From Kineococcus aurantiacus (lineage in GTDB: Bacteria; Actinomycetota; Actinomycetes; Actinomycetales; Kineococcaceae): a stretch of DNA of 64,000 nt. The position numbers and the translations under genes were made by a program. This document shows positions 61,494 to 63,179 of the stretch, in pieces. The stretch is taken from positions 558,001 through 622,000 of the forward strand of contig NZ_JACCBB010000001.1 of the NCBI RefSeq assembly GCF_013409345.1. The letters are read 5' to 3'. Numbering within the stretch: position 1 is the first letter of the stretch; every line of letters begins with the position of its first letter. The notes under the pieces are model-generated. The model did not search any database, had not been told where the DNA came from, and worked only from the letters and a program-made list of their open reading frames with translations.

Positions 61494-61509
61494 TCGAACA
61501 CCGGTTCGA
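61494..61509. promoter_or_regulatory. LexA (SOS) box
   Basis: TCGAACACCGGTTCGA is a perfect palindrome matching the Gram-positive/actinobacterial LexA consensus CGAAC-N4-GTTCG. A second, imperfect half-overlapping copy (CGAACACGTTTCG, 61507-61519) abuts it. It lies just downstream of a minus-strand TTGACG (61550-61545)/TAGCTT (61525-61520) promoter, placed to block it. Confidence 0.8.
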
Positions 61510-61710: not shown

Positions 61711-62328
61711 GTGATCCGCCTCCCCGCCCTCCTCGCACCCCTCGCCGCAGCGGCCCTGCTCGCCGGGTGTTCGAACGGCTCCCCGGACGCCCCGGGGACG
61801 CCGGCCGCGAGGGCGACGGCAGCGATGGCGGCACCCGGCGAGGCGGCGGAGCCGACCCCGGAGGTGAGCGCGAGCGCCACGCCGAGCCCGACGGCGACCC
61901 GGGACCTGCCGGTGCCGGAGCTGTCGGAGCTGGGGAAGGAGTTCTCCCAGGAAGGGAGCGGGGCGTTCGCGATCTACTACGTCCAAGTCCTGAACTACTC
62001 GCGCAATTCTGGGGACGTGGAGGTTTTGCGCTCGATTTCCGCCCCTGACTGCGCTGCCTGCGATGACGACGTGCGCGAGGTGTCCTTCTACCTCGCTCAC
62101 GGCTATTCACACGACGGACTTGAGACGCAATTTCGAAAGATCGAGTTCGGATCGTGGGAGCCGGCCACTGGCGACTCTCAAATGCAGGTCTACGTAGATC
62201 GACCTGCACATTCTGTCATTGATCGAGGCGGGACGGTCATCGATGAAGCGCCAGGAGCGACTGACGCGAGTTTCTACTTGTGGTTGAAGTGGGTCGACAA
62301 CCACTGGCTTGTTTGGGAAGCACAGTGA
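61711..62328 (+). CDS. DUF6318-type lipoprotein
   Basis: A 205-residue lipoprotein: the signal peptide ends in the lipobox LLAGC (Cys20), followed by a Thr/Pro/Ala linker (about 25-70). The domain GAFAIYYVQVLNYSRNSGDVEVLRSISAPDCAAC resembles DUF6318, with two close cysteines that may form a disulfide. The function is unknown. From about residue 87 the DNA drops to roughly 50-57% GC and uses A/T-ending codons, unlike the first 85 codons. Its stop overlaps the next gene's start (GTGA). Confidence 0.82.
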   Translation: MIRLPALLAPLAAAALLAGCSNGSPDAPGTPAARATAAMAAPGEAAEPTPEVSASATPSPTATRDLPVPELSELGKEFSQEGSGAFAIYYVQVLNYSRNSGDVEVLRSISAPDCAACDDDVREVSFYLAHGYSHDGLETQFRKIEFGSWEPATGDSQMQVYVDRPAHSVIDRGGTVIDEAPGATDASFYLWLKWVDNHWLVWEAQ

Positions 62329-62560
62329 TTGGAAAGATCCCCAGGATTGCAGCCAGCGCCCTCTTGACCCTACTCGGAGTCGTTCAACTCACCGCTGCAC
62401 CTGCTCATGCACAAAGCAGCAACTGGGCAAGAGGGAACGGCTCGTCGATATCAGTAGGCGCTAGCAAGAAAATTTCAGGTTCTAGAACGCCTGACTGGTA
62501 CAGCGGGCGCAAGAAGGTTTCAACTGCACCGCCGCCTCAAACGATCAAAAAGCCTTCCTG
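61970..62560. other. Low-GC tract spanning two genes
   Basis: Sixty-base samples count to 52% GC at 62101-62160 and 48% at 62461-62520, against 78% at 62701-62760. The tract starts inside the DUF6318 lipoprotein gene, covers the GTGA junction, and ends about 78 codons into the PKD gene. Edges are estimates to within 20-30 bases. No repeat, transposase or attachment site is visible at either edge. Confidence 0.85.
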
Positions 62561-63179
62561 CCGCGTGGACACCGGAGGCGCTCCGGGTCAGGGCATCGGG
62601 TGCGGCGTGGACCTCGGCCCGTGCGTCGCCGACAGCACCCTGATGACCACGTGGACCAAGGGGCTCGACGGGACGTGGGCGGCGGGAGACATGCAGTGCG
62701 TCGCGGCGGGGAACGGGGGTGCGGCCGCCGTCACCATCCCCACCGTCACCGTCGCCGACCTCCAGCGCGTCGGTCTCCCGCCAAGCCCGGTGAACCTGCA
62801 GCCGGGCACGGGCGAGGCCCTGCTCAACGTCCCGCTCATCCTCACCACGACGGGCGGGACGGTCACCCGGGACACGACCGTGCTGGGGTTCCCGGTGACG
62901 ATCCGGGCGACCCCGGTGTCGTGGACGTGGACCCTCGGGGACGGGGCGGTGGTGGGGCCGACGGACGACCCGGGGCGGCCGTACCCGCACCAGACGCTGA
63001 CGCACACCTACACCGCGGCGGGCGACCACGCGATCACCCTCACCACGACGTGGGCCGGGGAGTACACGATCGCGGGGTTGCCGTACCGGCCCGTCGAGGG
63101 GACGGCGACGACGACCTCGGCGCCGGTGGCCGTGCACGTCCTGGCGGGACGCAACGTCCTCGTCGCCCCGGACCGCTGA
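62325..63179 (+). CDS. Exported PKD-domain protein
   Basis: A 284-residue secreted protein. The signal peptide ends near AHA-Q (residue 29). A Ser/Lys/Gly-rich stretch (30-85) is followed by a Cys-containing region (SCRVDTGG..GIGCGVDLGPC). A PKD-like beta domain (about 200-270) has WTWTLGDG and HTYTAAGDHAITLTT. No catalytic motif was seen; PKD folds usually bind proteins or glycans at the cell surface. The GTG at 62325 overlaps the DUF6318 stop, so the two are likely partners. The first 78 codons are low-GC, the rest typical. Confidence 0.82.
   Translation: MIGKIPRIAASALLTLLGVVQLTAAPAHAQSSNWARGNGSSISVGASKKISGSRTPDWYSGRKKVSTAPPPQTIKKPSCRVDTGGAPGQGIGCGVDLGPCVADSTLMTTWTKGLDGTWAAGDMQCVAAGNGGAAAVTIPTVTVADLQRVGLPPSPVNLQPGTGEALLNVPLILTTTGGTVTRDTTVLGFPVTIRATPVSWTWTLGDGAVVGPTDDPGRPYPHQTLTHTYTAAGDHAITLTTTWAGEYTIAGLPYRPVEGTATTTSAPVAVHVLAGRNVLVAPDR

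Follow-up and report, generated by a model that had tools for sequence, protein, structure and literature searches.

We consider it probable that the low-GC tract spanning the junction of a DUF6318 lipoprotein gene and its PKD-domain partner in Kineococcus is a hypervariable two-gene cassette exchanged within genera, with the two variable parts probably forming a co-evolving surface lock-and-key pair. The replacement of the block and its limits are well supported by discordant trees and by abrupt breaks in DNA homology between close relatives, while our inferences on the lock-and-key role, on the selective cause and on why GC is low carry decreasing confidence, in that order. The window, i.e. 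the whole stretch of 64,000 nucleotides analysed here and in which positions are counted, corresponds to G000:C1:558001-622000 of a 5.03-Mb Kineococcus genome. A sequence-only reading of the same DNA had taken the tract for a module acquired by recombination from a lower-GC relative, with the interacting portions of both partners moving together, and the results below lend that interpretation partial support.

The tract and the gene pair it joins

A sharp fall in GC across the gene junction, with both frames staying open, is confirmed by 120-bp GC windows, by the GC3 of the gene parts and by the open reading frames. GC stands at 0.79 at 61820-61939, drops to 0.53-0.63 over 61940-62539 and is back at 0.74 by 62600-62719. 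Within the DUF6318 gene, GC and GC3 are 0.783 and 0.93 over 61711-61968 and 0.566 and 0.66 over 61969-62325; the PKD gene shows 0.549 and 0.54 over 62325-62561, followed by 0.748 and 0.96 over 62562-63176. The tract thereby takes in most of the folded DUF6318 domain and, in the PKD gene, the first 79 codons (Table 1). The GC expected from protein content is 0.66 for the DUF6318 part and 0.69 for the PKD part, both above the observed values, and since GC3 falls across the tract, codon choice is shifted too: amino-acid content accounts for part of the drop and codon choice for the rest. Among 600-bp windows over 400 kb of this genome (mean GC 0.746, s.d. 0.044) the tract minimum of 0.562 is equalled or undercut only at 502.7-504 kb and at 528 kb of G000:C1, and in G005, a close relative, no window over 400 kb has lower GC than the homologous tract (0.507; next 0.623). 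These equal or lower minima of G000 belong to low-GC clusters outside the window, at G000:C1 498900-505600 and 527400-533100, which are wider than the tract (600-bp minima 0.53-0.62) and are possibly mobile elements.

Table 1. Positions in the window of the tract, its homology limits and the parts of the two genes
Feature	Position	Strand	Basis
Low-GC tract, core of the putative junction cassette	61960..62565		GC windows, gene-part GC, 400-kb background
Outermost limits of DNA homology breaks against G005, G001 and G003	61778..62745		Left edge 61778-62015, right edge 62721-62745
DUF6318 lipoprotein gene, 205 aa	61711..62328	+	Pfam PF19843, 47.6 bits (cut-off 23.8); open frame
Signal peptide with lipobox-like LLAGC end (Cys20)	61711..61770	+	Sequence
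Disordered Ala/Pro/Thr linker, high GC	61771..61935	+	Mean pLDDT about 45-53 over residues 11-60; GC 0.78 for 61711-61968
Variable NTF2-like domain, residues 76-205	61936..62325	+	Low GC from about 61950; AlphaFold2 pLDDT block means 90-98
PKD-domain partner gene, 284 aa	62325..63179	+	PF00801, 28.9 bits (cut-off 23.5)
Variable N-terminal part of PKD gene, signal peptide and segment with SSNWARGNGSSISVGA, low GC	62325..62561	+	GC, alignment
PKD middle segment, Cys-containing, high GC	62562..62714	+	20-24% identity to six syntenic relatives
Conserved PKD region, high GC	62715..63176	+	Best tree is the species tree

The two genes overlap, with the GTG start of the PKD gene at 62325 and the TGA stop of DUF6318 at 62326-62328, and DUF6318 and PKD are the only Pfam families that the pair gives above cut-off. 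The DUF6318 start at 61711 was picked because it gives a signal peptide, the cysteine of which (C20) is nearly invariant in the family; by the lipobox rule, such a lipoprotein sits on the outer face of the membrane. Its partner is called secreted because the N-terminus resembles a signal peptide. The variable domain of the lipoprotein finds its best structural match in an ARC6 domain (Z 12.9, rmsd 2.4, 123 residues aligned), and among the 50 matches listed Z ranges from 9.6 to 12.9 with several entries titled NTF2-like, a correspondence of fold only; the predicted PKD model is of low confidence in its N-terminal half. In the middle segment of the PKD protein the six syntenic relatives are 36-80% alike and G000 only 20-24%, and as this segment is high in GC yet divergent, variability passes the GC edge on the right side.

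Both genes are single-copy in their own genome, where a DUF6318 query, run to look for silent copies that might feed the cassette, returned only itself and one match at E 0.1. The pair is adjacent and the GC drop is present in all 12 family genomes, with mean GC of 76.4% in the flanks, 59.8% in the C-terminal part of DUF6318 (DUF6318-C), 65.1% in the N-terminal part of the PKD gene (PKD-N) and 74.5% in its C-terminal part (PKD-C), and with mean GC3 of 74.6, 68.3 and 97.2 in the three gene parts. In a class-wide sample DUF6318 occurs in 46 of 296 genomes; 41 of the 54 loci besides our own were fetched and 34 have a readable PKD partner. DUF6318 GC lies below background in 39 of the 41, and GC3 below that of PKD-C in 30 of the 34 for DUF6318 and in 34 of 34 for PKD-N, the four exceptions being two probable wrong-frame calls (L081, L086) and two conserved paralogues (L102, L103). 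In two other genera, here g40 and g52, 45 of 49 and 131 of 147 searched genomes, respectively, match the PKD partner; the pair and the drop are found in all 45 g40 loci and in all 30 g52 loci examined, and DUF6318-C GC3 is below PKD-C GC3 in every one of both sets. The g40 partners were located by profile searches, a motif-based finder having missed 13 of 30 loci in that genus. At four places in g52 (G349:C1:2307264-2313132, G407:C1:2138490-2142492, G388:C28:11850-13905 and G435:C2:106312-108730) PKD partner genes lie in twos or threes only a few kb apart, as if modules could also stack in tandem.

Seven of the 12 family genomes share the pair's neighbourhood and five have a different one. By Pfam, the neighbours in the window are a DnaE-type polymerase, which from its place and size we take to be dnaE2, a HEPN protein, DUF6504 and an aminoacyl-tRNA editing gene; three other genomes have chlorite dismutase and MsrB (SelR), radical SAM and glutamine synthetase, or an FMN oxidoreductase. 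As the neighbours differ between genomes, the surroundings give no functional hint. A TCGAAC-N4-GTTCGA palindrome at 61494-61509, the sole copy in the window (0.02 expected), sits between the minus-strand DUF6504, HEPN and DnaE-type polymerase genes and the DUF6318 gene, and resembles an actinobacterial LexA box. One gene away from the pair lie a Vsr-type mismatch endonuclease gene in G011 (L045:2919-3404) and an HNH endonuclease gene in G006 (L041:6457-7515). Among plasmids, the PKD query met only three Arthrobacter records (33-37% across roughly a third of its length), and the DUF6318 query found no match among phages.

Replacement of the junction block

Seven syntenic Kineococcus genomes (G000, G001, G003, G004, G005, G009 and G010) made up the tree set, and all 945 topologies were ranked. 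DUF6318-C sets G000, G005 and G009 apart from G001, G003, G004 and G010, whereas the flanks instead join G009, G004 and G010. The flank/species tree is rejected by DUF6318-C (delta lnL 65, AU 0.0005), by PKD-N (delta lnL 12.5, AU 0.02) and by the two joined (70 log units, AU 0.0002); in turn, both cassette trees are rejected by the upstream genes joined and by the downstream genes joined (AU at most 0.0013 each), as well as by nine of ten single flanking genes at AU < 0.05 (5/6, plus 4/4 with six taxa each), with DUF6504 at AU 0.07. PKD-C sides with the flanks: it prefers their tree and rejects that of DUF6318-C (AU 0.014), but not that of PKD-N (AU 0.155). Over the 945 topologies PKD-N places the tract tree first and the DUF6318-C tree third, and PKD-C and five flanking genes place the species tree first to fourth and the DUF6318-C tree 58th to 393rd. 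For most data sets the AU tests were re-run on distinct trees, the initial set having contained duplicates.

In DNA alignments against G005, G001 and G003 homology breaks off inside both genes (Table 1, where distances from the DUF6318 stop have been turned into window positions). In the comparison with G005 some 60 bases align as an island inside the break, and the right break falls 156-180 bp past the GC edge. Breaks occur in six of eight Kineococcus pairs, G001/G003 and G008/G002 aligning through, and in 16 of 18 close g40 pairs picked from 990, with two aligning through; their edges in g40 lie at -190 to -563 on the left and +126 to +339 on the right of the DUF6318 stop, and as the 18 pairs share genomes they do not represent 18 independent events. 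It is g40 that supplies the clearest evidence: in the pair G290/G115, DNA that is 95% and 90% identical on the two sides fails to align from -472 to +186. Where PKD-C is at least 90% identical (nine g40 pairs), DUF6318-C protein identity is 26-49% in eight and 87% in one, and in eight of the nine closest pairs the flanks are 87-98% identical around the divergent cassette; nine further pairs with PKD-C at 85-90% have domains at 33-70%. The closest g52 pair (L216/L221) combines 90% in PKD-C with 44% in the domain and a break from -316 to +363, and one of the 12 closest pairs of that genus aligns through (L221/L222, domain 69%). Nearest neighbours by cassette and by PKD-C differ for 35 of the 45 g40 loci, the domain of G115, for example, being 61% identical to that of G345 vs. 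36% to that of its sister G290. Among supported g40 clades, 6 of 11 from the cassette conflict with the flank, vs. 2 of 19 in the control of PKD-C against the flank. Together, the discordant Kineococcus trees and the g40 breaks uphold the claim that edges inside two genes mark a module replaced by recombination. The sequence-only reading had further proposed that a drop common to all relatives together with a single tree for both parts would make the tract an old, constrained feature; the drop is indeed seen in all relatives, whereas the low- and high-GC parts give different trees.

Could the interacting parts simply be fast, evolving adaptively in place with no exchange? The domain is indeed more variable than PKD-C in nearly all 990 g40 pairs, and a search for near-identical cassettes between distant flanks caught no donor, cassette identity exceeding that of PKD-C by at most 2.9 points among those pairs. 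In the four pairs of different alleles tested, synonymous sites are near saturation inside the domain (pS 0.67-0.76) while PKD-C has pS of 0.26-0.38, and between related alleles domain omega is 0.12-0.13 (G337/G335 and G001/G003) or 0.08 with dS near saturation (G331/G330). Domain dS is raised even between related alleles (0.55 vs. 0.35 and 0.87 vs. 0.23 in PKD-C), and part of the excess may therefore reflect a faster synonymous clock in low-GC DNA. Set against the low omega, the sharpness of the breaks, the clade conflicts and the high GC3 of fast background windows described below, evolution in place appears very unlikely, and we still read the synonymous divergence and the breaks as pointing to old alleles under purifying selection that probably replace one another.

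Trans-species polymorphism, in which old alleles outlast speciation and seldom pass from one species to another, predicts deep divergence, discordant trees and genus-wide pools equally well, and in a sample of one genome per species the two readings look alike. It needs many alleles in every species, carried through many splits, and the block limits still demand recombination at the conserved ends; we judge it rather unlikely as the main account and favour exchange of alleles within the genus.

The two variable parts were also said to move jointly, a claim that holds in the topology of Kineococcus and only weakly in g40. Analysed separately, DUF6318-C and PKD-N of Kineococcus yield nearly the same tree. 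In g40, once PKD-C is taken into account, domain identity and PKD-N identity show a partial correlation of 0.22 (reached in 0 of 2000 permutations); three separate parts of PKD-N give 0.11-0.17 (5 to 21 of 2000), and the first half of PKD-C, as a control, gives 0.05 (485 of 2000). Against this, the PKD-N data of g40 favour the PKD-C tree (delta lnL 120) over that of DUF6318-C (277). Co-variation thus appears clear in Kineococcus and modest to weak in g40, as judged from the sequences of these loci.

Origin of the low GC

The donor, in the original proposal, was a lower-GC relative and the transfer a single event. Sharp GC edges within two genes and discordant trees are what one recent replacement of this kind would leave, but neither the donor nor the single event survives the comparison: the drop is common to all relatives examined, in the family as in the loci of the two other genera; cassette GC is independent of host GC, staying near 60% whatever the host (slope 0.07, r 0.08, 89 loci); and on the cassette tree the 12 cassettes of the family group together. 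Because they cluster, the donors probably lie inside the family group, the fetched regions of which are all at 72-77% GC. The locus does not have the distribution of a horizontally acquired low-GC island, and we reject a foreign lower-GC donor, leaving a single recent replacement of that kind barely credible. More generally, a sharp GC drop need not imply a foreign donor.

A natural same-genome control is offered by three genomes (G290, G239 and G115) that hold a second DUF6318-PKD pair (L102, L103 and L111) with a more conserved domain. The second DUF6318 genes have GC3 of 95, 94 and 93 vs. 77, 70 and 73 in the hypervariable copies, and domain identities of 56-73% vs. 32-36%; PKD-N of the second pairs is equally variable (39-45%), with GC3 of 76-82. 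Fold and amino-acid content alone are rejected as the cause of the low GC by these high-GC3 paralogues and by the codon-level deficit. Fast evolution alone is likewise rejected, given that 85 background windows at 30-60% identity between G000 and G005 keep an average GC3 of 0.93-0.95 in G000, a value obtained with a crude filter (of 221 gene calls, 47 were dropped for a codon-position pattern suggesting a wrong frame and 174 retained, and some remaining low windows also resemble wrong-frame extensions).

Low GC might itself be the function, kept by selection as an AT-rich target of the Lsr2 silencer or as slow codons, with variation a by-product. Low GC is kept in all lineages examined and an Lsr2 gene is present, but the paralogues with conserved domains reach GC3 of 93-95, the profiles of GC and identity run in parallel (r 0.72 in g40 and 0.46 in Kineococcus), and the sharp homology breaks would be left unexplained; we therefore regard a functional low GC as quite unlikely. 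Our best guess, with which the data are consistent, is that low GC arises from suppressed recombination between alleles. GC-biased gene conversion is put forward as a keeper of high GC by Lassalle et al. (PMC4450053); if so, divergent alleles that do not recombine would drift to lower GC, and the block may stand near 60% because its alleles are too different to recombine and would escape such conversion. The contrast in the same three genomes between conserved and hypervariable domains (GC3 93-95 vs. 70-77) also provides a natural test of what makes GC high elsewhere.

A putative surface lock and key compared with known recognition loci

In the mechanism we propose, the lipoprotein anchor encoded by the 5' part of the first gene and the conserved PKD region encoded by the 3' part of the second would serve as constant ends, and the lipoprotein's NTF2-like domain together with the signal peptide and N-terminal segment of its partner would form the exchangeable block between them. 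Within a genus, divergent alleles would swap through homologous recombination at these ends, as suggested by the sharp breaks, the near-saturated synonymous divergence inside and the discordant trees. The NTF2-like domain would most likely bind the N-terminal segment of the PKD partner as lock and key of a surface complex, and the two variable parts would be kept together for that reason. Selection for rarity would probably maintain the allelic diversity, whether in telling self from non-self or in evading phages or competitors.

Searches against PADLOC defence models and NCBI families gave no match for either protein, and the pair has no toxin or immunity match in Pfam, PADLOC or NCBIfam, a weak test in which absence of a match says little; recognition, adhesion and phage escape may all be compatible with it. 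Literature searches found no paper that names DUF6318 and no description of a hypervariable lipoprotein/PKD junction block. Hypervariable blocks across gene junctions are a known mark of recognition loci, and a lipoprotein and PKD version would point to an actinobacterial surface recognition system. Carried further, and here we can be no more than tentative, the locus may determine a surface allotype in actinobacteria: many lipoprotein/PKD lock-and-key pairs would exist, each strain would display a single one, and the pair would serve kin recognition or evasion of phages and rivals, its alleles traded as junction cassettes and its low GC the footprint of alleles no longer recombining.

The closest solved fold of the variable domain offers a precedent for binding a partner: the intermembrane-space domains of ARC6 and PARC6 bind PDV2 and PDV1 (PMC5877594), and structure titles record PARC6-PDV1 co-crystals. 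Identity is 6-10%, however, the plant proteins act in plastid division, and a common fold shows no function. Among bacterial systems, CDI/Rhs toxin-immunity cassettes tie a variable C-terminal part of the first gene to a variable partner and are replaced as a block. The DUF6318-PKD cassette likewise combines a variable C-terminal part of its first gene with a variable partner, but it matches no toxin or immunity model, its second gene is half variable and half conserved, and both proteins look exported.

In the agr and com genes, the outer ends are conserved and the partners vary together. The hypervariable region of the staphylococcal agr locus runs from agrB to agrC (PMC6834553), and for Bacillus comQXP the comQ and gyrA trees are reported not to be congruent, with comQ diverging by more than 30% among strains whose gyrA is clonal (PMC4408185). 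Our locus resembles both in having a hypervariable region over neighbouring genes with a tree discordant with housekeeping or flanking genes: the block spans the gene junction between conserved outer ends in 16 of 18 g40 and 6 of 8 Kineococcus pairs, and conflicts with the flanking genes in the Kineococcus trees and the g40 clades. Unlike them, it has no peptide-processing enzyme, small signal gene or histidine kinase, and thus no processed peptide signal with a histidine-kinase receptor. By analogy, the DUF6318-PKD locus, while not itself an agr or comQXP locus, may work like them.
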